Assembly: GCF_000013025.1 (NCBI RefSeq)
Contig: NC_008358.1
Location: 2,356,001-2,420,000, forward strand
From: Hyphomonas neptunium ATCC 15444
GTDB lineage: Bacteria; Pseudomonadota; Alphaproteobacteria; Caulobacterales; Hyphomonadaceae
Length of the DNA: 64,000 bases
Direction: 5' to 3'
Shown here: piece after piece, positions 12,935 to 28,224 of the stretch
Layout of the letters: every line of letters begins with the position of its first letter
Position numbering within the stretch: the stretch's first letter is position 1
Translations under genes and position numbers: made by a program
Notes under the pieces: model-generated
The model's database searches: none
Seen by the model: only the letters and a program-made list of their open reading frames with translations
What the model was told of the DNA's origin: nothing

Positions 12935-13962
12935 GCGGCGCGGAGACCCTGCAGCAGATCGTGCTTGCCCAATATTGCGACGGGGTCCCGAAGCCTTCAG
13001 ACTTCCGGCTGGAAACCGCGCCCCTTCCAGAGCCCAAGGACGGCCAGTTCCGCGTGGCGCATGTCTGGTGCTCAGTTGATCCTGGCACCCGCTCACGCCT
13101 CTCAGGCGGCGACAGCTACGCCGCTGCGCTTCCACTCGGCAAACCCATCGACGGCTTCAGCGTGGGCGTCGTTGATGCCTCCAGCAATCCTGACTGGCCG
13201 GTCGGCACGAAGGTGTTCTGTGCGGGCGGCTGGAAGACGCATTCGATCCAGTCCGGCAAGGGCTTCATCGGCAAGGTGATGGACGTTCCGGGCGTGCCGC
13301 TCTCTGCCTGGATCGGCGTACTCGGCGTGCCGGGGCTGACGGCGTGGTTTGGCATGAAGGACGTGGCGCGCTTCAAGGAAGGCGACGCCGTGCTTGTTAC
13401 CTCCGCCGCTGGTCCTGTAGGCGCCACAGCAGGACAGCTCGCCAAGGGCTGGGGCGCGTCAAAGGTTGTGGGCGTGGCAGGCAGCGACGAGAAGTGCCGC
13501 TGGCTGGTCTCCGAAGCGGGCTTTGACGCAGCCATCAACTACAAGACGGCGAGCGATCTTTCCGGCGCGATAGCAGCCGAGTTTCCCAAGGGCGTCGATG
13601 TGCTGTTCGACAATGTGGGGAATGCGATGGTCGATACCGTGCTGCCACTGATGGCGCTGAACGGGCGGATATGCATTTCGGGTCAGGTGGCCGATTACAA
13701 CCTGAAGCCCGAGGAAACACCCGGCATTGTCCACACCAAACCCTTCATCACCCACCGGGTGAACATGCAGGGGCTGGTGGTGTTTGATTTTGCGCGTGGT
13801 TTCCCGGAAGCCCTTGGTTCGATGGCGAAAATGATCGCCTCAGGCGCCCTCAAAATTCAGGAGGATCGCTTCGAGGGCATCGCGGAAATACCTGAAGCCT
13901 TCTGTGGACTTTTCCGGGGGGAAAATTCGGGCCGCCGGGTGGTCAAGGTCGGCGCAGAATAG
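12931..13962 (+). CDS. NADP-dependent MDR oxidoreductase (CurA/YncB/PTGR type)
   Basis: 343 aa with a GTG start overlapping the preceding TGA. Zinc-independent medium-chain reductase. N-terminal GroES-like domain with YCDGVPKPSDFRLE, followed by a Rossmann domain with AAGPVGATAGQLAKGWGASKV, GSDEKCRWL and VDVLFDNVGNAMVDTVL. This group reduces double bonds of enones such as curcumin or prostaglandins; the natural substrate here is unknown. Last gene of the purM unit. It converges with the holin-like gene 6 bp away. Confidence 0.87.
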   Translation: MSGAETLQQIVLAQYCDGVPKPSDFRLETAPLPEPKDGQFRVAHVWCSVDPGTRSRLSGGDSYAAALPLGKPIDGFSVGVVDASSNPDWPVGTKVFCAGGWKTHSIQSGKGFIGKVMDVPGVPLSAWIGVLGVPGLTAWFGMKDVARFKEGDAVLVTSAAGPVGATAGQLAKGWGASKVVGVAGSDEKCRWLVSEAGFDAAINYKTASDLSGAIAAEFPKGVDVLFDNVGNAMVDTVLPLMALNGRICISGQVADYNLKPEETPGIVHTKPFITHRVNMQGLVVFDFARGFPEALGSMAKMIASGALKIQEDRFEGIAEIPEAFCGLFRGENSGRRVVKVGAE

Positions 13963-13968
13963 CGAGGT

Positions 13969-14394
13969 TTAGTCCTCGTCGTCCTCGTCATCATCCTTGT
14001 TCAGGAAGCTGGAGAGGATGAGACCGGCAATCGCGGTGATGGCGACAATCTGTTTGCCACTGCCTTCGGCGCCTGTCAGGGCGGATAGCATGTTGCTTTG
14101 CGGGTCCTGACGGGCAGCTGCGGCGGCCTCTTCGGCACGCTCTTCAGCGGCTGATCTGACCGACATAAGCACGAGGACAGCCCCGCCCATAAGCGCAAAG
14201 CCAAGGGCGATAAACGCCGCCGCTTCCCACGGCCTCATCCGCTCCATAAGGAACAGCGCAAGGGCCAGAACTGCAGCAATATATGCCGTCAGCAGAAGAA
14301 CGGCGATCACGGCGACAGCGCCGAGACCCTTGATGCCGCGGCTCACCTGAGCTTCGACCTTGTTCTGCAAAAGCGAGGACAGGGCGGAGAACAT
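13969..14394 (-). CDS. Holin-superfamily-III / DUF1469-like inner membrane protein
   Basis: 141 aa. Two hydrophobic helices (about residues 26-50 and 58-82), an Ala/Glu-rich cytoplasmic segment, a third hydrophobic stretch (IVAITAIAGLILSSFL) and a very acidic tail (DDDEDDED). This matches the cellular proteins filed under Phage_holin_3_6. They are chromosomal, usually next to ElaB/YqjD-type proteins as here, and there is no other phage gene nearby. Its ATG overlaps the upstream TGA by one base (TGATG). Confidence 0.72.
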   Translation of the reverse strand: MFSALSSLLQNKVEAQVSRGIKGLGAVAVIAVLLLTAYIAAVLALALFLMERMRPWEAAAFIALGFALMGGAVLVLMSVRSAAEERAEEAAAAARQDPQSNMLSALTGAEGSGKQIVAITAIAGLILSSFLNKDDDEDDED

Positions 14395-14741
14395 CAGCGG
14401 CGGATCAGCAGCGAAGCGATGAAGCCGGCGCCAAAGGCGATCAGCAGGGTTTGCAGGGGATTGGACTGGGTCTGTACCCCCAGCGACTTTTCCAAAGTGG
14501 CGGCCTGTTTGTGGATCTGTTTCAGCGCGCGGCGGGCGTCCTTGAGGATTTCCTCACTTATGTCTTCTGCTGTTGTTGCAGCAGATTTCACGGTTTCTTC
14601 TGCAACCTGCTCAACTTCATCGGCGGCCTTGTCAGCGAGGGCGGCCATGATCTCGTCGACCTCCGAGCGGAGCGCGGCGAGCCGGGCTTCAAGGTCGGCA
14701 GTTCCTTGTTTATTGGCGGTTTTTGCGGGCGCTTTGGACAT
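14394..14741 (-). CDS. DUF883 (ElaB/YqjD-like) membrane-anchored protein
   Basis: 115 aa. A long amphipathic helix rich in Ala, Glu and Lys (residues 15-85) is followed by a short C-terminal membrane segment (LQTLLIAFGAGFIASLLIRR). This is the layout of ElaB/YqjD proteins, tail-anchored inner membrane proteins that bind ribosomes in E. coli stationary phase; that role is only known there. It is co-transcribed with the holin-like gene. Upstream it has the phased TGTCC array at 14860-14937 and a TTGACG element just after it. Confidence 0.75.
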   Translation of the reverse strand: MSKAPAKTANKQGTADLEARLAALRSEVDEIMAALADKAADEVEQVAEETVKSAATTAEDISEEILKDARRALKQIHKQAATLEKSLGVQTQSNPLQTLLIAFGAGFIASLLIRR

Positions 14742-14859
14742 GGGACGGGTTACCTGAAACTCAATTTCGAGAGGGAAGACCTATCAGATGTGGGTTGTAT
14801 TTGCGTGAAGGTTAATTGGTAAATTCCACGTCCACCTTAAGCAATTGGGCGTCAAATGG

Positions 14860-14937
14860 CGGACATCCACGAGACAGCCCGGGACACTCCCGGGACAAAT
14901 CGGGACACTTTGGGACAGATCAGGACACTTCCGGACA
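14860..14937 (-). repeat. TGTCC array, eight units at 10-11 bp
   Basis: On the plus strand the hexamer NGGACA (one copy GAGACA) starts at 14860, 14871, 14881, 14892, 14902, 14912, 14922 and 14932: steps of 11, 10, 11, 10, 10, 10 and 10 bp, one turn of the helix. Read toward the downstream DUF883 gene (minus strand) the unit is TGTCC. The array touches the ndk terminator on one side and ends 4-5 bp before a TTGACG (14857-14852) on the other. Likely a regulatory protein-binding array; its binding protein is unknown. Confidence 0.75.
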
Positions 14938-14973
14938 CAAAAAAGCCGGAGGCGGGCGTCCCTGCCTCCGGCT
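14937..14973 (-). terminator. Rho-independent terminator of ndk
   Basis: Perfect 10-bp stem AGCCGGAGGC / GCCTCCGGCT with a 10-nt loop, followed on the minus strand by a run of six T. It starts 34 bp after the ndk stop. Confidence 0.92.
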
Positions 14974-15006
14974 CTGATCTGGTGCCCGAGGGCAGCCAAA
15001 TTTGGG

Positions 15007-15429
15007 TTAGTTGGTGAGGTCAGCCTCGGAGAAGAACTGCGCGATTTCCAGCGCAGCGTTCTCAGCCGAGTCCGAGCCATGAACCGAGTTTTCGCCGATC
15101 GACTTGGCGAACAGTTTGCGGATGGTGCCGTCTGCGGCGTCGGCCGGGTTGGTGGCGCCCATCACTTCGCGGTACTTCGTGATGGCGTCTTCAGCTTCGA
15201 GAACCTGAACGACGACAGGGCCGGAGATCATGAAATCGACCAGTTCGCCGAAGAAGGGGCGCGCGGAGTGGACCGAGTAGAAACGCTCGGCCTGGGCGCG
15301 GGTCATCTGGATGCGGCGCTGGCCGACGATGCGCAGACCAGCTTTCTCGATCACGGCATTGATTGCGCCGGTGAGGTTACGCTCGGTGGCGTCGGGCTTG
15401 ATGATGGAAAAGGTGCGCTGCACGGCCAT
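15007..15429 (-). CDS. ndk: Nucleoside diphosphate kinase
   Basis: 140 aa starting at ATG 15429 ([18 protein letters not shown]), with GGAAG 6-10 nt upstream; the frame stays open upstream but only with non-homologous sequence. Exchanges the terminal phosphate between NTPs and NDPs through a phosphohistidine. The active-site segment [20 protein letters not shown] contains the NxxHGSDS signature with the catalytic His. It has its own terminator and is divergent from yjdM. Confidence 0.97.
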
Positions 15430-15580
15430 GAGGGGCTTCCTGTAGTCTTCTGTTGTTTCGGTGGATTTGCGCGGCCTATAGCGGCGCGGCGCCGCCGGGG
15501 CAAGCGCCGATAGGCGCCCTTGCGCACAGGGAATGCAGGGCGTAGGGCGGCCGTTATCCACAAGCGGAGACCCGTAGCCC

Positions 15581-15916
15581 ATGAGCGACCTTCCCCCCTG
15601 CCCCAAATGCGGCTCCCCCCTGACCTATGAAGACGGCGCCCTGCTGGTCTGCCCCGAATGCGCCCATGAATGGGCGCCGGGCGAAGCGGCGGCGGACGGG
15701 CCCAAGGTGGTCAAGGACTCAGTCGGCAACCCGCTCGCCGATGGCGACACGGTGACCGTGATCAAGGACCTGAAGGTGAAGGGCTCATCGCTGGTCGTGA
15801 AGCGCGGCACGAAGGTCAAGAACATCCGCCTCGTGGACGGGGATCATGACATCGATTGCAGGATTGATGGCGTCGGCGCGATGGGGCTTAAGTCGGAGTT
15901 TGTGAAGAAGGTTTGA
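15581..15916 (+). CDS. yjdM: YjdM/PhnA-type zinc-ribbon protein
   Basis: 111 aa. The N-terminal zinc ribbon has CPKCGSPL and CPECAHEW. The PhnA-like C-terminal beta domain follows ([22 protein letters not shown], then [15 protein letters not shown]). The family is often labelled alkylphosphonate utilisation protein, but the E. coli gene is not needed for that process, and the true role is unknown. A single-gene unit divergent from ndk. Confidence 0.9.
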
Positions 15917-15947
15917 CCAGCTTCCCAACCTACCCCTTCCATCGTCA

Positions 15948-15975
15948 CACTCGATGGCCAAAGGCCATCTGAGTG
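15948..15975. repeat. Palindromic repeat unit
   Basis: CACTCGATGGCC, loop AAA, GGCCATCtGAGTG: a 12-bp inverted repeat with one extra T, 31 bp after yjdM. It resembles in plan the hairpins at 16028 and 16706 (GAYGG.. core inside a CTC/GAG outer arm). The rest of the 15917-16235 gap holds the 16028 unit, a GGCAGGTTGCCTGC palindrome near 16083 and no gene that I can see. Confidence 0.5.
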
Positions 15976-16027
15976 CCCAGCGTCTGGCCTGACCGATTGC
16001 GCCAGCAGAAATATTCCGAGATGGGCT

Positions 16028-16078
16028 CTCAGACGGGCTGCGCCCGTCTAGGGCGACGAACACGGAGGGGTTTGGGAT
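16028..16078 (+). repeat. Direct repeat, left copy, flanking the GNAT gene
   Basis: CTCAGACGGGCTGCGCCCGTC followed by about 30 bp containing ACACGGAGGG and TTTG. It matches the copy at 16706-16757 over about 50 bp with only a few differences (the first 21 bases identical). The core GACGGGC-TGC-GCCCGTC is a perfect inverted repeat. Confidence 0.8.
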
Positions 16079-16235
16079 GTGAGGCAGGTTGCCTGCGCGT
16101 GCGGAGAGCTGTAGCAAGCAGGTGACATCTGAAGACGGAGATTTATGCACAGACGCTCAGTTTGAACCGCGAGTTGCGGAACTTCAACGCGCCCATCGGG
16201 CGTGATCTCTGTGTTATTTTCTCTTCGGAGACATC

Positions 16236-16688
16236 ATGAAAAATCAAATACTGACCGTCCGCCCCTATAACGCGGCAACCGACCTTCCGACATTGCTCGA
16301 CATCTGGTTTGAGGCGTCCCTGCGTGCCCATCCCTTTTTAGGTGAGCACCGTTTGCGTGAGGAACGCATCCTGATGGAAACTGAATACCTGCCAAAATCG
16401 GAAAACTGGGTTGCCTGCGACCAGGGAGAGCCGATTGGATTCATTGGCCTTCTGGATACATTCGTGGGCGGACTGTTCATTGCTCCGGCCCATCAGGGAA
16501 AAGGCGCTGGCCGCCTCTTAACAGCGCATGCGCTGGAACTGAAAGGCAGACTCGAACTGGAGGTCTACACCGACAACCAGCAAGCATATGCTTTCTATGA
16601 AAAGCTGGGCTTTCGGGAAGTCTCGAGGCGTCGGACTGATGACCACGGCCTCCCCTTCGAAAACGCCCGCATGCGACTGACAGGCTGA
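16236..16688 (+). CDS. GNAT acetyltransferase, YjaB-like
   Basis: 150 aa. GNAT fold: N-terminal VRPYNAATDLPTLLDIWFEA, CoA-binding loop APAHQGKGAGRLLTAHAL, and the C-terminal YTDNQQAYAFYEKLGFREV. The order and wording resemble E. coli YjaB (FLS.. near residue 35, ALFI/GLFI before the loop, FYxKxGF). Substrate unknown. By eye it is less GC-rich than its neighbours, especially at the 5' end, and it sits alone between two ~50-bp direct repeats, so it may be an acquired or mobile cassette. Confidence 0.85.
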   Translation: MKNQILTVRPYNAATDLPTLLDIWFEASLRAHPFLGEHRLREERILMETEYLPKSENWVACDQGEPIGFIGLLDTFVGGLFIAPAHQGKGAGRLLTAHALELKGRLELEVYTDNQQAYAFYEKLGFREVSRRRTDDHGLPFENARMRLTG

Positions 16689-16705
16689 GCCTGCCCTGCT
16701 CCACC

Positions 16706-16757
16706 CTCAGACGGGCTGCGCCCGTCGAGGGTAACGCACACGGAGGGTTTTGAGGAT
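16706..16757 (+). repeat. Direct repeat, right copy, flanking the GNAT gene
   Basis: Near-copy of 16028-16078. Here the palindrome is longer (CCCTC-a-GACGGGC-TGC-GCCCGTC-GAGGG). It ends 2 bp from the holC stop codon, so it may also act as the holC 3' hairpin. Confidence 0.8.
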
Positions 16758-16759
16758 CG

Positions 16760-17236
16760 TTAAACCCCCGCCTCTTTCCAGCCGCCACGTTCCGTCTGCT
16801 GAAAATAGCGGGTGGTGAGGCCGGCATCTTTTGCGGCCTTGAACTGGGCGCGCGCCTTGTTGCGGGTGCCGGTGTCGGCGTCTTCGAACATCACCATGCA
16901 GCGCTTGAAGGCCACGTCCACCGGCGCCTCCACGCCGTCCATCAGCATCAGGGCATCGGCGCTGTTGGCGTTGGTGAGCTTTGCCGACAGCAGCACTGGC
17001 TGGCGGGCGACATCCAGACCCGGCGCATCGGCCTGGCCATGCGGCAGGAAGGAGGCGTCGTCGAAGGTCCAGAGCACGGCGTCGAGCTTTGCCAGACGCT
17101 CCGCACGCGGAGACACGGCGAGCACGCGCCAGCCGACTTCGAGGCATTTCTGCAGGAGCGGCGCGGCGGCCTCCTCCAGCGCGCTGCGCGAGAGATGGTA
17201 GAACCACCATTCGGGGGCTGCTGGCTGCATGCTCAA
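16760..17236 (-). CDS. holC: DNA polymerase III chi subunit
   Basis: 158 aa. The chi subunit links the clamp loader to single-strand-binding protein. Visible: N-terminal WWFYHLSRSALEEAAAPLLQK, LDAVLWTFDDASFLPHG, PVLLSAKLTNANSADALMLMDG and FEDADTGTRNKARAQFK, all typical of alphaproteobacterial HolC. It lies downstream of pepA on the same strand, a common pairing, separated by two GC hairpins. Confidence 0.9.
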   Translation of the reverse strand: MSMQPAAPEWWFYHLSRSALEEAAAPLLQKCLEVGWRVLAVSPRAERLAKLDAVLWTFDDASFLPHGQADAPGLDVARQPVLLSAKLTNANSADALMLMDGVEAPVDVAFKRCMVMFEDADTGTRNKARAQFKAAKDAGLTTRYFQQTERGGWKEAGV

Positions 17237-17250
17237 CCCTCTCTCCGCTA

Positions 17251-17309
17251 ACCCCCGCGAAGGCGGGGGTCTGTTATGGTCAATCGAGGCCCCCGCCTTA
17301 AGCGGGGGC
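17251..17309. repeat. Pair of GC-rich palindromes between pepA and holC
   Basis: Two related hairpins: ACCCCCGC-gaag-GCGGGGGT (17251-17270) and GCCCCCGC-cttaa-GCGGGGGC (17289-17309). Neither has a T-tract. They look like members of the CCCCCGC...GCGGGGG repeat family common between alphaproteobacterial genes, and could attenuate transcription or protect mRNA between pepA and holC. Confidence 0.65.
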
Positions 17310-17331
17310 GCTCGGAAACAGGCGGGGCCGA

Positions 17332-18798
17332 TCAGGCCTCGTAGTTATCCACGATCCAGCGGCTGAGCAGGCGCGGGCCGTAGCCCGAGGCCCAGCTTGG
17401 GTCGGTGGGGGATTTCTCGCCTTCGACCCAGGCAACGCCAGCGATGTCGAGGTGGGCCCAGCGGACGCCGTCCTTGATGAAGCGCTTGAGGAACTGCGCT
17501 GCGGTGATCGAGCCGGCGGCCCGCCCGCCGATGTTGCGCATGTCAGCGAACTTCGACTTGATGAGCGAGTCGTATTCCGAGCCCATCGGCAGGCGCCAGA
17601 CGCGCTCGCCTTCGGCGAGGCCGGCCTTGGTCAGCTCGTCTGCCAGGTCGTCCGAGTTGGTGAAGAGGCCCGCATGGTGGTGGCCGAGCGAGATGACGAT
17701 GGCGCCGGTCAGCGTGGCAAGGTCCACGATGGCTTTCGGCTTGAAATGCTCCTGCGCGTACCAGAGCACGTCACACAGGACGAGGCGGCCTTCGGCGTCG
17801 GTGTTCTGCACTTCGATGGTCTGGCCCGAAGCGGAGCGGAGGATGTCGCCGGGGCGGATGGCGTTACCATCAGGCATGTTTTCCACAAGGCCGATGAGGC
17901 CGACGACATTCACCTTGGCTTTCGCCTGGGCGAGCGCGCGCATCGTGCCGGTGACGGCGGCGGCACCGCCCATGTCGCCGCGCATCTCTTCCATGCCGGG
18001 GCCGGGCTTCAGCGAGACGCCGCCGGTATCAAAGCAGACGCCCTTGCCGACGAGAATGACAGGATCTTCGCCCGCCTTGCCGCCGTTCCATTTCATGATG
18101 CCGAGCTGGCTTTCCTTGACCGAGCCCTGGCCGACGCCGAGGAGCGCGCCCATGCCGAGCTTGGCCATCTGCTTCTCGCCGAGCACTTCGACTTCGACGC
18201 CGAGGGCGGAGAGTTCCTTGATCTTTTCGGCAAAGCTCTCCGGGTGCAGGTCATTCGGCGGCATGTTCACAAGGTCGCGCGCCAGATAGGTGCCGTCGGT
18301 GGCGGCATCGAGCATCACATAGGCGGCCTTTGCCGCCTTGGGATCGTCGCAGACGACCGTGAGGGTCGAGAGGCTCGGCTTCTGGTCGGCTTTCAGCTTG
18401 GTGAAATAGGTGTCGAAGCGGTAGGCGGCGAGTTTGGCGCCGGCCGCAACACGAGCAGCCTCTTCAGCCGAATGGGCGGCGATGGAGGCAGACTTGAAGC
18501 CCGAGGAGGCAAATGCCTTCACGAAATGGGCGCCGATGTTTTCCATGGCGCGGGCATCGCGTTTCTTGGGCTTGCCGCCGCCGACCACGACAGCGCGGCG
18601 CGCGTCCGAACCCTTGGGCAGCACAACCGACGCTTGCTGGCCGACTTTGCCATCAAAGCGTCCGCCTTCCAGCGATTCGGAAATCAGGCCGCCGGACGCC
18701 TTGTCGAGCGCTTCTGCGCTACCGGGCAGGCCTGCCCCCTCATCGGCGATGAAGGCGGCGATGTCGGCCTTGGCGGCGTCTGCGAATGTAATCTTCAT
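17332..18798 (-). CDS. pepA: Leucyl aminopeptidase (M17)
   Basis: 488 aa. Cytosolic dizinc aminopeptidase. The family signature NTDAEGRL lies near residue 330, the metal-binding VGKGVCFDTGGVSLKPG near 250, and GDMGGAAAVTGTMRALA just after. PepA can also bind DNA in E. coli (Xer recombination, carAB); nothing in the sequence speaks for or against that here. ATG start after GGAAAC. Confidence 0.96.
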   Translation of the reverse strand: MKITFADAAKADIAAFIADEGAGLPGSAEALDKASGGLISESLEGGRFDGKVGQQASVVLPKGSDARRAVVVGGGKPKKRDARAMENIGAHFVKAFASSGFKSASIAAHSAEEAARVAAGAKLAAYRFDTYFTKLKADQKPSLSTLTVVCDDPKAAKAAYVMLDAATDGTYLARDLVNMPPNDLHPESFAEKIKELSALGVEVEVLGEKQMAKLGMGALLGVGQGSVKESQLGIMKWNGGKAGEDPVILVGKGVCFDTGGVSLKPGPGMEEMRGDMGGAAAVTGTMRALAQAKAKVNVVGLIGLVENMPDGNAIRPGDILRSASGQTIEVQNTDAEGRLVLCDVLWYAQEHFKPKAIVDLATLTGAIVISLGHHHAGLFTNSDDLADELTKAGLAEGERVWRLPMGSEYDSLIKSKFADMRNIGGRAAGSITAAQFLKRFIKDGVRWAHLDIAGVAWVEGEKSPTDPSWASGYGPRLLSRWIVDNYEA

Positions 18799-18919
18799 GT
18801 GTGGAAACTCCGTTTGAAGCGGAAACTAAGCATCGACGCGCCAAGCGCAACTCGTTAGCTAGAGAATTGCTGCCAATTCCGGTTCTGTTTCTGGACGCTA
18901 GAGTGACCGCACCCCACCC

Positions 18920-20062
18920 ATGACCAAGATCCAGCTGCATCTATTAAGGCAGGTTCTGCAGGCCGTGCTGATCATTGTCGGCAGCCTGGTAATGGTTGCG
19001 CTGCTGGCGCAGGGCCTGTCGCGCACCGATGTGATCCTGGAAAACCGGCAATCGGCGATCACCTATTTCTATATCGTCATGCTGGGCTCGCCGCAGGTGA
19101 TTGCCCTGCTGCTGCCGCTGGCGCTGTTCGTGGCAGGGGTCTGGTCGCTTAACCGTATCCACAAGGATTCGGAGATCGTGGTGGCGCAGGCTGCGGGCAT
19201 GACACGCTGGCAGGTGGCTTCACCCGTGCTGCGCCTGGCGATGGTGTGCCTTGTGGTACATCTGGGAGTGAACCTCTGGGTTCAGCCGATGTCGCAGCGG
19301 GCGATGCGGGAAGCCGTTGCCGAGGCGCGAGCAGATCTTGCCGCCGCCCTGTTCCGGGCCGGCCAGTTCACCTCCAATGGCGAACGCCTCACATTTTACG
19401 CGCGCGATCAGGTCGGCGGGGAACTGCGCGGGGTGCTGATCTCCGACATGACGGACCCCGAATTCCCCATGGACATTCTGGCGCGCTCGGCGGCGCTGGT
19501 GTCGGTGGATGGCCAGCCCACGCTGCTGCTGCGCGACGCGCTGAGCCAGCAGCTGGACGAAAACCAGCAGCTCTCGGTGCTGGAGTTCGATCAGTACATG
19601 TTCGATCTGTCGGACTTCATGAAGGAGGATTCAGAGCTGGTTCTGAAAGCCTCTGACAAATTCCTGCATGAGCTCATCTTTCTCGACCGAAAGAACTACT
19701 TTGAAAACAAGGAAGCCGACAGTTTCCTGGCCGAGGCAAATGCGCGGCTGACCTCGCCGATGCTGAACATCGTGATGGCGCTGCTGGCGATCTTTGCGGT
19801 GCTTGGGGGGGATTTCAGCCGGCAGGGCTATGCCAAGCGGATCGGTCTGGCGACCGGGGGGGCGATCTTCGTTCTGGTGTTGCATCTGGCCTTGCAGTCA
19901 GCCGCCGCCGATGACCCCGCCCTCAACATTGCCTTGTGGGTGGTGCCCATTCTGGCCGGGATCATCCTGGGATGGATCTATTTCGGCCGGGGCGCCCGGA
20001 TTGGCCGCAAACAATGGGTGGCGGCGCCGCCACCGGGCTACATTCCGGGAGCACGCAGCTGA
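18920..20062 (+). CDS. lptF: LPS export ABC transporter permease LptF
   Basis: 380 aa. Inner membrane half of the LptB2FG exporter that extracts lipopolysaccharide. Transmembrane segments at about residues 11-32 and 54-75 and a group of three after residue 270, around a periplasmic beta-jellyroll domain (about 120-260). The conserved QAAGMTRWQV coupling helix follows TM2. It overlaps lptG by one base (TGATG). Begins the long plus-strand run to rpmG. Confidence 0.92.
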   Translation: MTKIQLHLLRQVLQAVLIIVGSLVMVALLAQGLSRTDVILENRQSAITYFYIVMLGSPQVIALLLPLALFVAGVWSLNRIHKDSEIVVAQAAGMTRWQVASPVLRLAMVCLVVHLGVNLWVQPMSQRAMREAVAEARADLAAALFRAGQFTSNGERLTFYARDQVGGELRGVLISDMTDPEFPMDILARSAALVSVDGQPTLLLRDALSQQLDENQQLSVLEFDQYMFDLSDFMKEDSELVLKASDKFLHELIFLDRKNYFENKEADSFLAEANARLTSPMLNIVMALLAIFAVLGGDFSRQGYAKRIGLATGGAIFVLVLHLALQSAAADDPALNIALWVVPILAGIILGWIYFGRGARIGRKQWVAAPPPGYIPGARS

Positions 20063-21183
20063 TGCCGGCCTTCTCGCGCATTCAGCGTTACATCCTGCGG
20101 GAATGCCTCTCCGGCCTGGTGCTGGTGCTGGGCATCCTATTGCTGGCGATCCTGATGATCGATGTGGTGGAGCAGATGCGCACTATCGGCGGCGATGTGG
20201 AAATCACGCTGCTGGACGCGCTGCGCCTGTCGCTGATGAAGCTGCCGATGATTATCGAACAGACGCTGCCCTTTGCCCTTCTGGCGGCCACGATGATGGC
20301 GTTCACCCGGCTCAACCGGCGCTCGGAGCTGTCGATCATCCGTGCCAGCGGGCTGTCAGCCTGGCGGTTTCTGACCCCGGTGATCGTTCTGGGTGTGGCG
20401 CTCGGTATATTCTCTTCCCTGGCGCTCAACCCGCTTGCCGCGCGGCTGAGCCAGTCGTTTGAGGCGGAACGCGCGCGGTTGCTGGATGTGGGCCGGGAGG
20501 TAGTTCAGGTGGCTGAAACGGGCGTCTGGCTGCGCCAGGGCGACGATTCCAGCCAGTATGTGATCCACGCGCGGCGGGTGGAGGATGGGGGCCGGACCCT
20601 GCTAGACGTCAAGATCATCGAGGAACAGCGCCTCTATAATGGCCGCCAGCCAACCAATGATTTTGCCTTTGTACGCCGGATCGATGCGGAAAAGGCCGTG
20701 TTGAACGAAGGCTTCTGGCAGCTGGAGAACCTGGTCGAGAACCTGCCCAACCAGGCCCCTGAACGGCGCGCGACGCTGGCCATTCCGACCTCGCTGGACG
20801 CAGTACGGCTGCTCGATGAGTACGCCTCGCCCAATACGGTCGGTTTCTGGGAATTACCCCGGTTCATTTTTGAAACACGGGCGGCTGGCCTCGACACTTC
20901 GCGCTATACGATGCGGCTTTTCACCCTAACGGCGACGCCTGTGCTTTTTACCGCGATGGCGCTGATCGGGGCCCTGGCCTGCCTCCGGCTGCAACGCCTG
21001 GGGGGCACTTCAAGACTGCTCGCAACCGGGGTGCTGGCGGCCATTGGGCTTTATTTCTTCACGCAATTTTCCTCCAGCCTGGGGTCAACCGGCGCGGCCC
21101 CGGCGGTCGTGGCGGCATGGTCACCGCCCCTGTTTGTGCTGTTCGTCAGCCTGGCCTTTATCGCCTACCGGGAAGATGGCTGA
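20062..21183 (+). CDS. lptG: LPS export ABC transporter permease LptG
   Basis: 373 aa from ATG 20062, which shares its A with the lptF stop; an earlier start would run through lptF. Same architecture as LptF: RIQRYILRECLSGLVLVLGI, the RRSELSIIRASGLSAWRFL coupling region, the periplasmic domain, and three C-terminal membrane helices. Together with LptF and an unlinked LptB it forms the LPS extractor. Confidence 0.92.
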   Translation: MPAFSRIQRYILRECLSGLVLVLGILLLAILMIDVVEQMRTIGGDVEITLLDALRLSLMKLPMIIEQTLPFALLAATMMAFTRLNRRSELSIIRASGLSAWRFLTPVIVLGVALGIFSSLALNPLAARLSQSFEAERARLLDVGREVVQVAETGVWLRQGDDSSQYVIHARRVEDGGRTLLDVKIIEEQRLYNGRQPTNDFAFVRRIDAEKAVLNEGFWQLENLVENLPNQAPERRATLAIPTSLDAVRLLDEYASPNTVGFWELPRFIFETRAAGLDTSRYTMRLFTLTATPVLFTAMALIGALACLRLQRLGGTSRLLATGVLAAIGLYFFTQFSSSLGSTGAAPAVVAAWSPPLFVLFVSLAFIAYREDG

Positions 21184-21253
21184 ACCGTAGCGGCCTTGAC
21201 AGCCCCTGCCGCTACAGACCATCTCTGCCGCCCTTGAAGAGGTGGACCCCTGC

Positions 21254-23833
21254 ATGAAACTTGTCGTCGTAGAGTCTCCGGCAAAGGCCAAAACGATCAA
21301 CAAGTACCTGGGGAAGGACTATAAGGTCCTCGCCTCCTACGGTCACATCCGCGATCTGCCCTCGAAAAATGGCTCGGTTGACCCGGAAAACGACTTCGAA
21401 ATGGTCTGGGAGGCCGATTCCAAGTCTGCCAAGCGCATCTCCGACATCGCCAACGCCCTGAAGGACGCCGACACGCTGATCCTGGCGACTGACCCTGATC
21501 GCGAGGGCGAGGCCATCTCCTGGCACCTGGTCGAGGCGCTGAGAAAGCGCCGGGCGCTCAAGAAAGATGTCGCCATCGAGCGCGTCGTGTTCAACGCCAT
21601 CACCAAGAGCGCCGTGACCCAGGCAATGGAGCATCCGCGCGCCATCGACGCCGAACTGGTCGACGCCTATCTGGCGCGCCGGGCGCTGGACTATCTGGTC
21701 GGCTTCAACCTCTCCCCGGTCCTCTGGCGCAAGCTGCCGGGCTCGCGCTCGGCGGGCCGCGTTCAGTCTGTGGCGCTGCGGATCGTGTGCGACCGCGAAA
21801 ACGAGATCGAGAGCTTCCGGGCGCAGGAATACTGGAACATCGTGGCAGAGCTGCGCGCGCCCGACGGCACCGCCTTTGAAGCCCGCCTGCACAGCCTCGA
21901 CGGCGAAACGCTGAAGAAGTTCACCCTCGGCAATCAGGGCGACGCAAACCGCGCGCTGGAGATCGTCAAGGTCGGCGGCTATTCGGTCGTCAGCGTTGAG
22001 GCCAAGCCCGTCAAGCGCAATCCGCCTCCGCCGTTCATCACTTCGACACTGCAACAGGAAGCCAGCCGCAAGCTCGGATTCAACGCCAAGCGCACGATGC
22101 AGGCCGCTCAGAAGCTCTACGAAGAAGGCCGCATCACCTATATGCGTACCGACGGCGTGAACATGGCCGAGGAAGCCTATGTCGCCGCCCGCACGATGAT
22201 CCAGTCCAACTATGGCGCGCGGTATCTGCCGGAAAATACGCGGCGCTATTCCTCCAAGGCGAAGAATGCGCAGGAGGCCCACGAGGCCATCCGCCCGACC
22301 GACTTCAATCTGCGCCCGGAAGATTACCACGGCGACGGCGACCTGAAGAAACTCTACACGCTCGTCTGGCGCCGGGCTGTCGCCTCGCAGATGGAAACGG
22401 CGCTGTTCGAGCGCACAACCATCGACCTTGCCTCCAAGGACAAGCGCGCGGGCCTGCGCGCCACCGGCCAGGTGCTGGTGTTTGATGGCTTCATCAAGCT
22501 CTACACCGAAGGTCATGACGCCGGGGATGATGATGACGACGCCGAAGGCCGCCTGCCGAAGATGGCCGAAGGTCAGCATGCTGACCTCCTGAAGGCGGAC
22601 GCCAACCAGTCCTTCACCCAGCCGCCCCCGCGCTATACCGAAGCCTCGCTCGTCAAGCGCCTTGAAGAACTCGGAATTGGCCGCCCGTCCACCTATGCCT
22701 CCACCATGTCGACGCTGGAAGATCGCGGCTATGTCCGCATCGAGGGCAAGGCGCTGGTGCCGGAAGACAAAGGCCGGCTTGTCACCGCCTTCCTCGAAAA
22801 CTTCTTCAGCCGCTATGTGGAATATGACTTCACGGCCGGCCTGGAAGAAAAGCTCGACGTCATCTCCGATGGCAAGCTCGACTGGAAAGCCTTCCTGCGC
22901 GAATTCTGGCAGCAGTTTGCCGCTGACATTGACGGCACGAAAGACCTGCGCGTTTCTGCCGTGCTCGACGCGCTGAACGAGGCGCTGGGCGCCTATGTGT
23001 TCCCGCGCCAGGACGCCGAAGGCAACCCCATCGAAAACCCGCGCCAGTGCCCGCTCTGCAAAGAGGGCGAGCTGTCGATGAAGCTCGGCAAGTTCGGCGC
23101 CTTCGTTGGCTGCTCGCGCCATCCCGAGTGCAAATACACCCGCCAGTTTTCCTCCGAGGGCGGAGATGCCGCGATCAATCCCGATGGCAACGAGATCGGC
23201 ATCCACCCCGATACCGGCGCCATGATCCTGCTGAAATCAGGCCGGTTTGGCCCCTATGTGGAAATGGCCAATGGCGAAAAGCCAAAGCGCGCCAGCCTCG
23301 CCAAGGCAGACAATGCTGCCGAGCTGACCCTTGAACGCGCCGTGGAGCTGCTCAGCCTGCCGCGCGAAGTTGGTCCGCACCCGGAAGATGGCGAAATGAT
23401 CCTCGCCAATTTCGGCCGCTTCGGGCCGTATGTTCAGCATGGCAAAACCTACGCCAACCTGAAAGACCCGCGCGACGTGTTCACCATCGGCGTCAACCAC
23501 GCCGTCTCGCTGATCGAAGACAAGAAAGCCCGCGGCTCAGCCCGCGGGGGCGCCGCAGCGCTCAAAGCCCTCGGCGATCACCCGGACGGCGGCGCCATCG
23601 AGGTGTTCGAAGGCCGCTACGGGCCTTACGTGAAATGGGGCAAGGTCAACGCCACCCTGCCCAAGGAGATCACGCCCGACGTGGTGACGCTGGAACAGGC
23701 CATCGAACTCGTAAACGCTAAAGGCGGCAGCGCGAAGAAAAAGGCCCCGGCCAAGAAAGCAGCCGCGAAAAAGCCGGCGGCAAAGAAAGCTGCGCCGAAG
23801 AAAAAAGCGCCGGCGAAGAAGGCTGAGGAATAG
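21254..23833 (+). CDS. topA: DNA topoisomerase I (type IA)
   Basis: 859 aa from ATG 21254, with AAGAGG upstream; a GTG 12 nt earlier is possible. Relaxes negative supercoils. Toprim domain with VVVESPAKAKTINKYLG and TDPDREGEAISWHLVEAL. The active-site tyrosine is in the EEGRITYMRTDGVNM motif. The C-terminal part has one C4 zinc ribbon (CPLCKEGEL...CSRHPECKY), then at least three degenerate repeats of the LxxGxFGPYV type without cysteines, and ends in a lysine/alanine-rich tail (KKAAAKKP and similar, last 45 residues) that probably contacts DNA. Confidence 0.96.
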   Translation: MKLVVVESPAKAKTINKYLGKDYKVLASYGHIRDLPSKNGSVDPENDFEMVWEADSKSAKRISDIANALKDADTLILATDPDREGEAISWHLVEALRKRRALKKDVAIERVVFNAITKSAVTQAMEHPRAIDAELVDAYLARRALDYLVGFNLSPVLWRKLPGSRSAGRVQSVALRIVCDRENEIESFRAQEYWNIVAELRAPDGTAFEARLHSLDGETLKKFTLGNQGDANRALEIVKVGGYSVVSVEAKPVKRNPPPPFITSTLQQEASRKLGFNAKRTMQAAQKLYEEGRITYMRTDGVNMAEEAYVAARTMIQSNYGARYLPENTRRYSSKAKNAQEAHEAIRPTDFNLRPEDYHGDGDLKKLYTLVWRRAVASQMETALFERTTIDLASKDKRAGLRATGQVLVFDGFIKLYTEGHDAGDDDDDAEGRLPKMAEGQHADLLKADANQSFTQPPPRYTEASLVKRLEELGIGRPSTYASTMSTLEDRGYVRIEGKALVPEDKGRLVTAFLENFFSRYVEYDFTAGLEEKLDVISDGKLDWKAFLREFWQQFAADIDGTKDLRVSAVLDALNEALGAYVFPRQDAEGNPIENPRQCPLCKEGELSMKLGKFGAFVGCSRHPECKYTRQFSSEGGDAAINPDGNEIGIHPDTGAMILLKSGRFGPYVEMANGEKPKRASLAKADNAAELTLERAVELLSLPREVGPHPEDGEMILANFGRFGPYVQHGKTYANLKDPRDVFTIGVNHAVSLIEDKKARGSARGGAAALKALGDHPDGGAIEVFEGRYGPYVKWGKVNATLPKEITPDVVTLEQAIELVNAKGGSAKKKAPAKKAAAKKPAAKKAAPKKKAPAKKAEE

Positions 23834-23898
23834 CCATTCACCCTCCTTTCAGCTTCCCTCTGCCCGTATGCGGAGGAAGCTGACCGGAGGCCTATGCC

Positions 23899-24237
23899 AT
23901 GCTCTTGCCTGCCCTGTTTTCGTCGATTGCCCTGATCGGGACGCCAGTTGCCGCGGCAAGCCCGTATGAAATGGAACTCTATGTCAGCGGGTATGATCGC
24001 GAGACGGTCTTTCTTGCGGCGCCCGGATTGGCGGATGCGGGCCCCCTGCCGGTATTCCGGATATGCTATGACAGCGCCGCAACCTCGCCCGCGCCGCAAA
24101 TATTGAGCGTACATGTCGGCGAACGCCGGCAAATGCTCACGCGGGGAAAATGCAGCTTCTTTGCAGGCGACGACATCGAACTGGCCGTCTGGAAAGCGGA
24201 CGGATCGATCCGCGCCAGCGTTACTCTGCTGCGCTGA
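23899..24237 (+). CDS. Small secreted protein, two cysteines, unknown function
   Basis: 112 aa. ATG at 23899 with CGGAGG 8 nt upstream. Signal peptide 1-20 ending VAAAS. The mature part carries PVFRICYDSA and, 29 residues on, RGKCSFFAGDDIEL, and ends in RASVTLLR. The same plan (PVxxxC, G-x-CxF, V-x-L-x-R end) occurs in the next gene, so the two look like diverged tandem paralogues, probably with a disulphide in the periplasm. I do not recognise the family. Confidence 0.7.
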   Translation: MLLPALFSSIALIGTPVAAASPYEMELYVSGYDRETVFLAAPGLADAGPLPVFRICYDSAATSPAPQILSVHVGERRQMLTRGKCSFFAGDDIELAVWKADGSIRASVTLLR

Positions 24238-24302
24238 GATTGACACCGCCAGAGCCTCAAGCAACTTCCTGAAATACAGAATCGCGGGACCGCAGAACCA
24301 TC

Positions 24303-24662
24303 ATGATCCGGAATGCCTTCCTGATAGCGCTCGCCGCCGCGCTGGCCGCCCCGGCCTTCGCCCAGGTGCCTCCGCCCATCCGCGTCACCGCGAAGGGCAA
24401 GGAAGTCGTGCCCGTTTTGGTCAGCCAGCCTTTGCCGGAGGGCGCGCAGGTGCTCTCCACGCCGGTGTTGCAGGTGTGCCATGGCGGCGGGAACGCGGTG
24501 AACGCCGTGCTTCTTTCCGGCGATCCGGACTTTGACGAGGCCGAGACTATCGAGACTGTGGTGGTGCCCGGCCAATGCGTGTTCATCTCGGCGCGGCTGG
24601 TGCGCCTGACGACCAACTCCGAGGGCGGCAGCACCGCCATCCTGGTGCAACTGGTACGCTAG
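24303..24662 (+). CDS. Small secreted protein, probable paralogue of the preceding one
   Basis: 119 aa. Signal peptide MIRNAFLIALAAALAAPAFA-Q. The mature part has PVLQVCHGGG, then after 33 residues PGQCVFISARLV, and ends TAILVQLVR, mirroring the gene at 23899. No Shine-Dalgarno is obvious. It lies 60 bp before rnr and may be transcribed with it. Function unknown. Confidence 0.7.
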   Translation: MIRNAFLIALAAALAAPAFAQVPPPIRVTAKGKEVVPVLVSQPLPEGAQVLSTPVLQVCHGGGNAVNAVLLSGDPDFDEAETIETVVVPGQCVFISARLVRLTTNSEGGSTAILVQLVR

Positions 24663-24721
24663 AACCGGGTTTCGCATAAAAGGCCGCGCAATTGGGCGCG
24701 AATTCGCCTATATCCGGCTCC

Positions 24722-27016
24722 ATGAGTTTTCCAGATAGACAGACTGTCCTTGATTTTCTGAAAGAAAATCCGGACGCGACCAGTAAAGCCGACATCGCCA
24801 GGGGCCTTAAAGTGAAGGGCCAGGAGCGCGCCGTGCTGCGCGATGTGCTCAAACAGCTTGAGGAAGAAGGCAAGCTGGAGCGCACCGGCAAGCGCAGCTT
24901 TGCGCAGGCCGACCGCCCGCCCCCTTCGGGCCTCGTTGAATTTACCCGCCTCACCAAAGAGGGCGATCTTGTCGGCCAGTGCGTCGGCGATAGCGGCCTT
25001 TTCGGGCCGGAGCTGATCTATGGCGGCCCCTCGGGCAAGAGCCGGGGCCGCGCGCCGGGCAAGGGCGACCGGGCGGTCTGCAAGATCGTCGGCCGCGAGG
25101 ATGGCGAATGGCGCGCCTATGTCATCACGCTGCTGGAGAAGCGCCTCAGCGACCGCATCGTCGGCCTCTATGAACACGCCCCGCGCGGTGGCCGGGTCAT
25201 CCCCGCCAGCCGCAAGGAGCGGCGCGAGCTGCTGATCCAGGAGGGCGACCGCAAGGGCGCCAAGGATGGCGATCTCGTCGTGGCAGAGCCAAAGCCGCAG
25301 GGCCGCCGCCAGCTTGGCCCGCCGCTGGGCGTGGTCAAAGAGGTGATCGGCCATATCACCGATGCCCGCTCGGCCAGCCTCATCGCGATCTATGCGCATG
25401 ACATTCCGGTGGACTTTCCAGAAGCCGCGCTTGTCGAAGCACGCGAGAAGGAACCGGCGGACGCTCCGCGTACCGATCTTCGCAATACGCCGCTGATCAC
25501 CATCGACCCGCATGACGCGCGCGACCATGACGATGCCGTCTGGGCCGAGCAGACCGAAGATGGCGGCTGGAAGGTGATCGTGGCGATTGCCGATGTGGCC
25601 GCCTATGTCACCGAAGGTTCCGCCCTCGACAAGGAAGCGGAGAAGCGGGGCAACTCGACCTACTTCCCCGACCGGGTCGTCCCCATGCTGCCGTTTGAGC
25701 TGTCGGCGGACGCTTGTTCCCTGCGCGAGAATGAAGACCGGCCGTGCATGGCGGTGGAGATGATCTTCTCTGCTGACGGCCACAAGAAGCGCCACCGCTT
25801 CCTGCGCGCCACGATGCGCTCGGCGGCAAAGCTCTCCTATGAGGAGGCGCAGGCCGCCATTGACGGCAAGCCCGGCGGCAAGGCCGAGGAGCTTCTGGAA
25901 ACGGTGCTGAAGCCGCTCTGGGGCGCCTATGCGGCCGTCTCCAAGGCGCGCGACATCCGCAGCCCGCTCGATCTCGACATGCCTGAGCGCCGGATCATGT
26001 TCACCCCCGAGGGTGAGCTGGACGGCATCGTGACGAAAGTCCGCCTCGACGCGCACCGCCTGATCGAAGAGTTCATGATCCAGGCCAATGTCGCGGCCGC
26101 TGAAACGCTGGAGCAGAAGAACAGCCCCGTCATGTACCGCGTGCATGATACCCCGTCGGACGCGAAAGTGGCGGCGTTTGCGGAGTTCCTGCAGACGCTC
26201 GACATGAAATGGAATATTGGCGAACGTCCGCAGACGCACAAGTTCAACAAGCTGCTCGCAGAGATACGCGGCGGGGATTATGAAGGCATGATCTCCCAGA
26301 TGGTGCTGCGCACGCAGGCGCAGGCGATCTATTCGGAAGAAAACCTCGGCCACTTCGGCCTCAACCTCGCCAAATATGCCCACTTCACCTCGCCCATCCG
26401 CCGCTACGCAGACCTGATCGTCCACCGCGCGTTGATCCGGGCGCATGATTTCGGCCCCGATGGCCTTTCCGAGCGCGGCGCCGCGCGGCTTGAGGAAGTT
26501 GCCGAACATATCTCGATGACAGAGCGCCGCTCGATGGCCGCTGAACGCGACGCGACCGACCGCTATCTGGCGATCTTCCTGTCAGACCGGGTCGGCGCCG
26601 AGTTTGATGGCCGCATCACGGGCGTCACGCCGGCCGGCCTCTTTGTGGCGCTGGCAGGCTCAGGCGCCGATGGCTTCGTGCCGATCTCGTCCATCTCGGA
26701 AGATTACTGGATACATGACGAGGCGGCGGTCGCCGTCTATGCGCGCGGCTCGGGGAAAACTTTCTCCATCGGCCAGATTGTGCGTGTACGTTTGCGCGAA
26801 GTCACCCCGCTTCAGGGCGGGCTGCTGCTGGAGATGCTGTCAGAGCCTCTGCCGGCACCACCAGGCCGCCAGGCTGCGCGCCAGGCGATCACCCGCGAGC
26901 GCGGCGGCCCACGCAGCCGTAGCGGCGGAGGCGGCGGTGGTGGCCCACCCCGCAGAGGCAAACCGAAATTCGACAAACGCACCCTGCCCAAGAAGGGCAA
27001 GCCGAAGCGGCGGTGA
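24722..27016 (+). CDS. rnr: Ribonuclease R
   Basis: 764 aa from ATG 24722 (MSFPDRQTVLDFLKENP); a TTG 30 nt earlier is not favoured. Processive 3'-5' exoribonuclease that degrades structured RNA. N-terminal winged-helix domain (1-70), cold-shock domains, RNB catalytic domain with the Asp cluster TIDPHDARDHDDAV near residue 265, the HFTSPIRRYADLIVHRAL signature near 560, an S1 domain (about 620-705), and a low-complexity Gly/Arg/Lys tail such as SGGGGGGGPP, which usually helps binding to structured RNA. Confidence 0.95.
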   Translation: MSFPDRQTVLDFLKENPDATSKADIARGLKVKGQERAVLRDVLKQLEEEGKLERTGKRSFAQADRPPPSGLVEFTRLTKEGDLVGQCVGDSGLFGPELIYGGPSGKSRGRAPGKGDRAVCKIVGREDGEWRAYVITLLEKRLSDRIVGLYEHAPRGGRVIPASRKERRELLIQEGDRKGAKDGDLVVAEPKPQGRRQLGPPLGVVKEVIGHITDARSASLIAIYAHDIPVDFPEAALVEAREKEPADAPRTDLRNTPLITIDPHDARDHDDAVWAEQTEDGGWKVIVAIADVAAYVTEGSALDKEAEKRGNSTYFPDRVVPMLPFELSADACSLRENEDRPCMAVEMIFSADGHKKRHRFLRATMRSAAKLSYEEAQAAIDGKPGGKAEELLETVLKPLWGAYAAVSKARDIRSPLDLDMPERRIMFTPEGELDGIVTKVRLDAHRLIEEFMIQANVAAAETLEQKNSPVMYRVHDTPSDAKVAAFAEFLQTLDMKWNIGERPQTHKFNKLLAEIRGGDYEGMISQMVLRTQAQAIYSEENLGHFGLNLAKYAHFTSPIRRYADLIVHRALIRAHDFGPDGLSERGAARLEEVAEHISMTERRSMAAERDATDRYLAIFLSDRVGAEFDGRITGVTPAGLFVALAGSGADGFVPISSISEDYWIHDEAAVAVYARGSGKTFSIGQIVRVRLREVTPLQGGLLLEMLSEPLPAPPGRQAARQAITRERGGPRSRSGGGGGGGPPRRGKPKFDKRTLPKKGKPKRR

Positions 27017-27111
27017 GCTTGCGCCGCGGCTCGGCCATGCTGCGCCGCAACGCGCAGACCTCTCCCAACGTCACGGTTTCAGAGGCCGGGATTCGCCTAT
27101 AGGATTGCCAT

Positions 27112-27837
27112 ATGTCCGGCATGCTCAAATCCGCTTTCGACAAAGAAGAAGACGGCGACGTCATCATCAAGGGGAAGCCAAGCCTGCGTCCGAAGGATGC
27201 GGCAACGCTGATCCTCGTGCGGCGCGACCAGACCCAGCCGCGCGTGCTGATGGGCAAGCGGGCCGGTGGCAGCGCTTTCATGCCCGACAAATACGTGTTC
27301 CCCGGCGGGCGCGTCGACCCGCATGACGGCAAGGCGGTTGCCTGGCAGGAACTGCGCGCAGAGGTCGAGGCAAAGCTGCGGCTGCAGTCACGCCGCCTGC
27401 CCCGCTCGATGGCGCTGACAGCGATTCGCGAACTGTTCGAGGAAACCGGCCTCATCATGGGCCGCTCGGCCGAGATGCCGGACACCTGCCCGGTTGGCTG
27501 GGACGATTTCCACAGGATGGACATCGCGCCTGATCTTGCCCCGCTGACCTTCATCGGCCGCGCCGTGACCCCGCCTTACCGCCCCCGGCGCTTTGACGCG
27601 CGCTTCTTCATGGCCGAGGCCGAAGAAGCGCTGATCGACGAGCGCCCCCCGGTAGACGGGGCGGAGCTCTCGGACCTGCAATGGGTGACGCTGGCGGACG
27701 CCATGAAGCTCGACCTGCCCTCGGTCACCCGGTTCATGCTGGGCGAGATCGGCGAGCGCCTGGCCAAGCCGGATGAGGATCACCGGCCGCCTTACCTGCG
27801 CTGGACCCGCAGCGGGCACCAGACCGACCGGCTGTGA
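27112..27837 (+). CDS. Nudix hydrolase
   Basis: 241 aa. The Nudix box is split by an insertion: PGGRVDPHD near residue 63, then TAIRELFEETGL near 104. That long-insert form is typical of the NUDT7/8/19 and alphaproteobacterial acyl-CoA-type diphosphatases rather than MutT or RppH. The catalytic glutamates of RELFEETG are intact. It hydrolyses a nucleoside diphosphate linked to another moiety; the exact substrate is not decidable here. Follows rnr by 95 bp. Confidence 0.85.
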   Translation: MSGMLKSAFDKEEDGDVIIKGKPSLRPKDAATLILVRRDQTQPRVLMGKRAGGSAFMPDKYVFPGGRVDPHDGKAVAWQELRAEVEAKLRLQSRRLPRSMALTAIRELFEETGLIMGRSAEMPDTCPVGWDDFHRMDIAPDLAPLTFIGRAVTPPYRPRRFDARFFMAEAEEALIDERPPVDGAELSDLQWVTLADAMKLDLPSVTRFMLGEIGERLAKPDEDHRPPYLRWTRSGHQTDRL

Positions 27838-27855
27838 CCGGGCGCTGCCCGGTTT

Positions 27856-27900
27856 TGTCCGGATCTGTCCCGATTTGTCCCAAACTGGCTGAATGTGTCC
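27856..27900 (+). repeat. TGTCC array, 10-bp period
   Basis: TGTCC at 27856, 27866, 27876 and 27896, exactly 10 bp apart, with a decayed copy (TGGCT) filling the 27886 slot and a possible one (TGCCC) at 27846. Same motif, spacing and orientation toward the next gene as the array at 14860-14937. It ends 23 bp before the rpmG -35 element. The 27838-27993 gap otherwise holds only the rpmG promoter and leader. Confidence 0.75.
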
Positions 27901-27923
27901 GGCGCCTGACCGTCTCAGACCGC

Positions 27924-27952
27924 TTGACTTAGGCCCGAAGCCTCGTCAATAA
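27924..27952 (+). promoter_or_regulatory. Candidate rpmG promoter
   Basis: TTGACT (27924-27929), 17 bp, CAATAA (27947-27952); a transcript would start near 27959, giving a 35-nt leader. The TGTCC array occupies about -60 to -105 relative to that start, an activator-type position. Confidence 0.5.
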
Positions 27953-27993
27953 GCGCGTTTTCCAGATTCACCCCTGATCAGAAGGGCCGCGAC

Positions 27994-28161
27994 ATGGCCA
28001 AACCCGCAACCATCAAAATCCGCCTGAATTCCACGGCTGATACCGGCTTTTTCTATGTGACGAAGAAGAACCCGCGCACGATGACCGAGAAAATGGTCCA
28101 GCGGAAGTATGATCCCGTCGCGAAGAAGCACGTCGAGTTCAAAGAAGGCAAGATCAAGTAA
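27994..28161 (+). CDS. rpmG: 50S ribosomal protein L33
   Basis: 55 aa, the normal length for this small protein. Begins [20 protein letters not shown] and continues with [20 protein letters not shown], ending KEGKIK. It lacks the zinc-binding cysteines of the C+ form, so it is the zinc-independent L33 type. AGAAGGG lies 6-9 nt before the ATG. Own promoter and terminator. Confidence 0.97.
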
Positions 28162-28219: not shown

Positions 28220-28224
28220 TTGGC

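Follow-up and report, generated by a model that had tools for sequence, protein, structure and literature searches.

Runs of the pentamer TGTCC at steps of 10 or 11 bp form at least 73 dispersed arrays in Hyphomonas neptunium ATCC 15444. In the clade that uses this word, the arrays avoid promoters, share their positions between species and are conserved at their core, and a second clade of the genus carries arrays of another word. On balance, we lean slightly toward the reading that they are cooperative protein sites, bound by one protomer per unit, which would act at the scale of the chromosome rather than as operators of single operons. The analysis covers a stretch of 64,000 nucleotides (NC_008358.1, positions 2,356,001 to 2,420,000; hereafter the window, in which all positions below are given), which holds two of the arrays, together with further loci of the same genome and of its relatives.

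Two arrays in the window

The first array lies on the minus strand at 14861..14937 and consists of seven exact TGTCC units and one near-copy at steps of 10-11 bp. Read on the plus strand, GGACA (TGTCC on the minus strand) occurs exactly at 14861, 14882, 14893, 14903, 14913, 14923 and 14933, and the near-copy AGACA at 14872, giving steps of 11, 10, 11, 10, 10, 10 and 10; the eight phased units reported in the initial annotation are thus present. Tandem Repeats Finder assigned periods of 21, 20 and 10 to this array. A search of the window for TGTCC-N5-TGTCC-N5-TGTCC with up to two mismatches gave seven matches compared with 0.09 expected, three of them at this array and four at the second one.

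The upstream gene is ndk, encoding nucleoside diphosphate kinase (15007..15429, minus strand; Pfam NDK, 8.9e-53). Behind it, a stem-loop with a 10-bp stem, a 10-nt loop and a T-run, read from the sequence (14939..14973, minus strand), directly precedes the array; a terminator scan limited to loops of up to 8 nt did not list it. On the other side, TTGACG (14850..14855, minus strand, position read from the sequence) lies 11 bp beyond the last TGTCC. It is probably a degenerate last unit of the array rather than a -35 box, because it is in the register of the array, because no sigma-70-like promoter was found in 14700-15050, and because the profile of array ends has, one step further on, a weak TGG/TGA unit. 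Of the two flanks first described, the ndk stem-loop stands, as read from the sequence, and TTGACG is probably no promoter element. The two genes downstream had been called a DUF883/holin-like pair: the second, a membrane protein (13969..14394, minus strand), is indeed holin-like (Phage_holin_3_6, 2.4e-8), while the 115-aa product of the first (14394..14741, minus strand) had no match over the Pfam cut-off, with no DUF883 match at E 0.001 and DUF3375 below threshold only.

The second array (27846..27900, plus strand) reads TGCCC, three TGTCC, TGGCT and TGTCC, all at step 10, and sits between a NUDIX gene and the gene for ribosomal protein L33. A short hairpin, CCGGGCGCTGCCCGG followed by TTTTGTCC (27838..27852, plus strand, read from the sequence), is placed between the NUDIX stop codon and this array. 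A known RNA family was rejected as the identity of the arrays, with 0 Rfam matches at the gathering score in window positions 13000-29000.

Number and unit structure in the genome

Across the whole genome (3.7 Mb, one contig), 319 pairs of the form TGTCC-N5/6-TGTCC were found compared with 11 for the reversed pattern, and triples at 10/11-bp steps numbered 188 (104 + 84) compared with 0 (0 + 0) in the reversed control. In the window and 79 further loci taken at listed pattern matches, a set smaller than the whole genome, we identified at least 94 TGTCC chains, of which at least 73 had three to eight exact units. Chain steps were mostly 10 bp (216), followed by 11 bp (26), and the rest skipped one or two units. 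The full unit is approximately TTGTCCCGAT, with C, G, A, T and T mostly following TGTCC, such that a G+C-rich TCCSG alternates with an A+T-rich ATTTG. In 464 kb, the distance spectrum of TGTCC peaked at 10, 20 and 30 bp and lone TGTCC outside arrays occurred at 1.02 of expectation; the functional entity therefore seems to be the array rather than the word.

Gene context and chromosomal placement

To describe the context of the arrays, genes were called with a codon-score script. Among the at least 73 arrays, 25 of 73 lay inside genes and 48 between genes under a 60% overlap rule (26 intragenic under a 50% rule), and only 14% of the examined DNA falls outside called genes. The 46 array-bearing intergenic regions comprised 14 convergent, 6 divergent and 26 tandem regions, compared with 42, 84 and 197 among 323 array-free regions; convergent regions were enriched and divergent ones depleted at arrays (p 0.003 for convergent versus divergent; array-bearing regions are longer than array-free ones), with 12-15 divergent regions expected. 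Distances to start codons were spread from 1 to 1019 bp, and the median distance was 51 bp to a 3' end versus 134 bp to a start. The neighbors of arrays with six or more units, judged by eye, looked functionally unrelated and were mostly housekeeping genes.

Because arrays are enriched in convergent and depleted in divergent regions, they are not promoter operators in general. A promoter model was rejected on this depletion and on the lack of a promoter at the 14861-14937 array, and operators of a regulon on the same depletion, the wide range of start distances and an array orientation of 15:12 in tandem regions, which is no clear preference. The initial annotation had treated the first array as a site of the membrane-protein operon, possibly for an activator, with a preference in orientation or distance as the test set in advance; the tandem split speaks against such a regulatory role, and the many arrays beside or inside unrelated-looking genes, together with the divergent depletion, leave an operon-specific site unsupported. 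An accessory role in termination, prompted by the hairpin before both window arrays, was also rejected: a hairpin of 7 bp no more than 50 bp ahead of the array was found for 5 of 48 intergenic arrays (two being those of the window) and 1 of 25 intragenic arrays, no more commonly than in control windows (94 of 861).

Along the chromosome, array spacing was indistinguishable from random (CV 1.00; 85 positions, pairs included, in a list complete only to about 2.77 Mb), and no strand skew was obvious among the same 85 positions, the origin not having been located. Placement thus gives no direct sign of a function in segregation.

Distribution and conservation among relatives

In 42 genomes of the genus, TGTCC triples numbered 188 in H. 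neptunium (G000), 203 in G056, 215 in G058 and 129 in G044, with 6 in G045, 4 in G063, 1 in G042 and none in the other 35; Hyphomonas sp. DS1.007 bears such arrays too. When TGDCC was allowed, G063 rose to 66 triples and G045 to 18, compared with 2 and 0 in reversed controls, which points to mixed or degenerate arrays (TGGCC/TGTCC) in these two genomes. The other 63 genomes of the family, all from outside the genus, had at most one TGTCC triple each. Apart from H. neptunium, none of 385 genomes across the class had more than three, in a scan whose reversed control reached 30 in G289 and 16 in G236 and in which counts of 1-3 are noise.

The array after ndk is composed of TGTCC in G000, G056, G044 and G058 and mostly of TGGCC in G063, takes a degenerate form in G045 and is absent in G051. 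The last genome, a 92% complete draft, had 0 TGTCC triples and 2 TGDCC triples, and the arrays look dispensable there. An ndk tree of 30 of the 42 genomes placed these seven genomes in one supported group. A period-10 scan for other words in 120 kb of the array-free G062, a small sample, found none.

Positions are shared to a large extent. Of 23 arrays in three relatives with syntenic H. neptunium DNA available, 22 share their place with an H. neptunium array; this count includes three (L299, L300, L301) shared by reverse mapping and leaves out two G044 arrays without H. neptunium DNA to compare. The G058 and G044 stretches were picked because they bear arrays. In the only stretch not picked around single arrays (G056 C3 1-200000, on a contig known to be array-bearing), 5 of 5 H. 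neptunium arrays and 5 of 6 G056 arrays were shared; L210, a candidate sixth shared H. neptunium array, was not counted because its match (73%) falls on sequence that L181, L182 and L226 match as well. Between orthologous arrays (22 pairs, one from G044 unaligned), identity to G056, G058 and G044 was 0.98, 0.97 and 0.92 in the cores, 0.65, 0.59 and 0.71 in the spacers, and 0.82, 0.81 and 0.78 in the flanks. The description of a same-face, cooperative-type array given earlier is supported by the conserved core, the free spacers and the lone TGTCC at expectation.

Intragenic arrays can be compared with array-free orthologues outside the clade. Alignment of the array-bearing L203 gene with its G055 orthologue (67% identity) and of the L172 gene with its G074 orthologue (61% identity) revealed no insertion or deletion, and since these alignments are gapless, the two arrays arose in place by substitution; formation without insertion is shown for these two intragenic arrays only. 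By contrast, one G044 gene with 52% identity to the array-bearing L154 gene is 12 residues short where the array lies, a gap that fits an insertion, although this gene sits outside the syntenic position and could be a paralogue. Alignments to genes of 30-35% identity had gaps too (L162, L180, L184, L204, and L154 versus G063), and L189 and G058, both of the clade, differ by three residues. A mobile dispersed repeat such as a REP or MITE element was therefore rejected for the TGTCC clade, given 22 of 23 shared positions, two intragenic arrays without insertion and one doubtful 12-residue gap. Randomly placed copies of a mobile repeat, which the initial annotation had named as evidence against a regulatory role, are accordingly not what was found in this clade.

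A different word in a second clade

Arrays of TRRTC at steps of 10-11 bp are present in nine further species of the genus, with 43-101 triples each (reversed control, 0-1), compared with 0-6 in other congeners (reversed control, 0-4). Typical units are TAGTCCGGTA and TGGTCATGGC, and the units of the two clades are alike, as seen from TTGTCCGGAT in G044 and G058 and TAGTCCGGTA in the TRRTC clade. In the ndk tree, all nine species fall across the midpoint root from the TGTCC group, with an array-poor draft (G066) among them.

Of 17 TRRTC arrays, taken from 34 loci of which 20 were picked for arrays, 8 were in tandem, 5 in convergent and 0 in divergent regions, and 4 were inside genes. This bias is not independent evidence, because a dispersed element has left its shared end sequence at each of the five convergent arrays. 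A stretch of about 100 bp is common to 7 of 20 G055 array loci (L319, L320, L324, L328, L331, L333 and L335), where it holds the array and an end TCATGRCGTAGACGGATGTAATCC or close to it; arrays of G075 (L283) and G074 (L288) have ends related to this repeat. Part of the TRRTC set has probably spread by copying, to judge from these common ends. Inspection by eye also revealed a short 10-bp phased run beside ndk in the TRRTC clade, between the stop codon and a terminator-like hairpin and thus on the other side of the hairpin than the TGTCC array; the ndk 3' regions with this run are L251, L243, L250, L252, L253 and L255, from G055, G076, G054, G059, G040 and G075, respectively.

Similar arrays in viral and other contigs

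Similar arrays were observed in two groups of IMG/VR contigs, in a viral scan that listed at least 120 stretches. In group 1, which among the matches listed includes L396, L406, L410, L413, L415, L419, L425, L430, L443, L452, L454, L457, L459, L463 and others, a long open frame contains, within its 3' end, converging TGTCC arrays of about four units each at step 10. This frame encodes a primase-helicase with AAA_25, and with Prim-Pol in L396; in 19 of the 20 contigs examined, the arrays are 79-84 codons ahead of its stop. Many of these contigs have a small ORF next, whose RHH_5 match was sub-threshold (E 0.01) in the two that were tested. The arrangement resembles a replication origin whose iterons lie within the initiator gene. 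Group 2 (among the matches listed, L398, L400, L407, L434, L448, L451 and L458) has arrays close to TGTCCCGATTTGTCCCGATTTGTCCCGGTATGTCCC, and TTGTCCCGAT is near the commonest unit of the H. neptunium genome as well. The group 2 array stands just after the primase-helicase gene in L398 and L407, whereas in L448 it lies close to the end of the contig, within a small ORF of similar kind. One group 2 primase, used as query at E 1e-20, matched 4 of 105 family genomes, none of them array-bearing, and a link to the phage arrays through this primase was rejected.

In eight other contigs (L035, L069, L077, L103, L108, L115, L139 and L146), labeled as various Bacteroidetes and one Clostridia, a near-identical sequence holds four TGTCC at step 10. 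It is probably one conserved gene, unrelated to the H. neptunium arrays.

Possible function of the arrays

In the explanation toward which we lean, a putative sequence-specific protein would bind with one protomer per 10-bp unit, the consensus in H. neptunium being about TTGTCCCGAT. Protomers would line up head to tail along a single face of the helix, such that only runs of units count, and the assembly would serve a chromosome-scale task such as nucleoid organization, segregation or a similar job at the DNA level. A seed for a filament or nucleoid protein, the other possibility raised in the initial annotation, is the one that survives.

Two rival explanations tie the arrays to transcription. 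They might be operators of a global transcription regulator, some of which control the adjacent gene: 26 of the 46 array-bearing regions are tandem, with one 5' end each and in the share expected, and response regulators and BldC bind direct repeats according to the account in PMC5859096. We nevertheless regard this as unlikely, since only 6 of 46 regions are divergent, genes contain 25 of the 73 arrays, and no common function was seen among the neighbors of large arrays. No more probable in our view, and still the strongest functional rival, are roadblocks or insulators, mostly at 3' ends, against transcription running on between genes. Convergent enrichment and the shorter median distance to 3' ends are as such roadblocks would have them, but promoter avoidance alone would give the same bias, hairpins before arrays are no commoner than elsewhere, and the intragenic arrays, some of them mid-gene, weaken the explanation.

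The remaining rivals concern the origin of the arrays or the DNA itself. A functionless family of mobile or amplified repeats would account for the stretch of about 100 bp at 7 of 20 G055 loci and its end on G075 and G074 arrays, for the patchy presence within the genus and for the 12-residue gap at L154; it is quite improbable, however: in the TGTCC clade, positions are shared but spacers are not, cores are better conserved than flanks, and neither of the two intragenic arrays that have a clear array-free orthologue shows an insertion. Slightly less credible again is a word belonging to a phage or plasmid replication system, with chromosomal copies as decoys, hijacked sites or relics. The viral contigs do have TGTCC arrays with similar spacer words in or just after primase-helicase genes; against this, the few family genomes matched by the group 2 primase bear no arrays, and the H. 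neptunium genome has no RHH_1 match. Just as slim is the chance that a general bending protein reads bent or bendable DNA without sequence recognition. The 10-bp alternation of TCCSG and ATTTG is what such a protein would use, but it is the exact pentamer that is conserved rather than any A+T/G+C phasing, and another clade has another definite word.

Beyond the cooperative protein sites themselves, a wider reading is tentative, and we give it clearly less than an even chance: a chromosome-wide addressing system, in which one DNA-coating protein recognizes on the order of a hundred arrays by a pentamer that has changed from clade to clade within the genus (TRRTC, TGTCC, and mixed TGGCC/TGTCC). 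A change of word would then be a change of specificity, and if so, the protein and the word of its sites would have changed jointly at every array, which somewhat recalls the rapid turnover of recombination or centromere sites in eukaryotes. In one relative, the whole system seems to have been lost. In themselves, dozens of arrays kept in place across species, some of them in coding sequence, imply a DNA-level function under strong selection. The relatives with another word or without arrays offer a ready comparison for finding the protein, which should be present in bearers and missing in G051, and for learning how scattered sites, as a set, can come to use a new word.

Candidate binders were searched with two domain models. 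The BldC-type model HTH_17 had one weak match in the H. neptunium genome (E 4.6e-4) and none at E 0.001 in G074, which has 70 TRRTC triples; matches were present in other array-bearing genomes. A BldC-type binder of this family was rejected on the weak match and on its absence in G074. RHH_1 (CopG-type), searched in eight genomes at E 0.05, had 1-6 matches in G056, G044, G058, G051 and G074 and none in G000, G063 and G045, and a CopG/ParR-like binder was rejected on the 0 matches to the RHH_1 model alone in H. neptunium at this threshold.

Comparison with known systems

The chromosome-organizing sites matS, SBS, parS and KOPS are likewise dispersed, conserved and largely independent of genes. 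They are single short sites, many of them palindromic or unevenly placed along the chromosome, whereas the arrays are multi-unit direct repeats without visible skew. OmpR/PhoB-type sites such as the pho box are head-to-tail repeats of about 10-11 bp with a TGTC-like core, and an OmpR-type protein is possible as the binder; pho boxes, however, are promoter elements with a few units, and the arrays have the opposite, promoter-avoiding context.

The winged-helix oligomers of BldC, Xis and RdfS act at regulator targets or attachment sites, unlike the arrays, which occur at dozens of promoter-avoiding places. In the arrays as in the BldC sites described in PMC5859096, head-to-tail direct repeats recur at about one DNA turn per unit. 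BldC is reported there to bind direct repeats of varying number with directional assembly; BldC and RdfS are both described as head-to-tail oligomers with about one DNA turn per protomer (PMC5859096, PMC11963761), and RdfS is reported to show no consensus motif (PMC11963761).

In the open-access PMC literature, we found these arrays described in no title or abstract. The nearest published counterpart that we found is the class of constant-length, variable-sequence repeats of Subirana and Messeguer 2021 (PMC8161180), tandem repeats with a constant length of 20-21 or 52 nt and a sequence that varies between species. Their function is presented in that paper as open, and a protein polymerizing on the repeat, with a role in the nucleoid, is proposed. 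The Hyphomonas arrays have a fixed step (10/11 bp) and clade-specific words. They differ from the repeats described there in their shorter unit of 10-11 bp, in which a pentamer is conserved, spacers are free and copies share only the core, and in that positions are shared between species, a third of the arrays are inside genes, and related clades have different words. Because Tandem Repeats Finder gives periods of 21, 20 and 10 for the 14861-14937 array, arrays of the present type may have been counted among those repeats. The arrays of Hyphomonas may provide a concrete and testable case of the enigmatic constant-length tandem repeats of bacteria.
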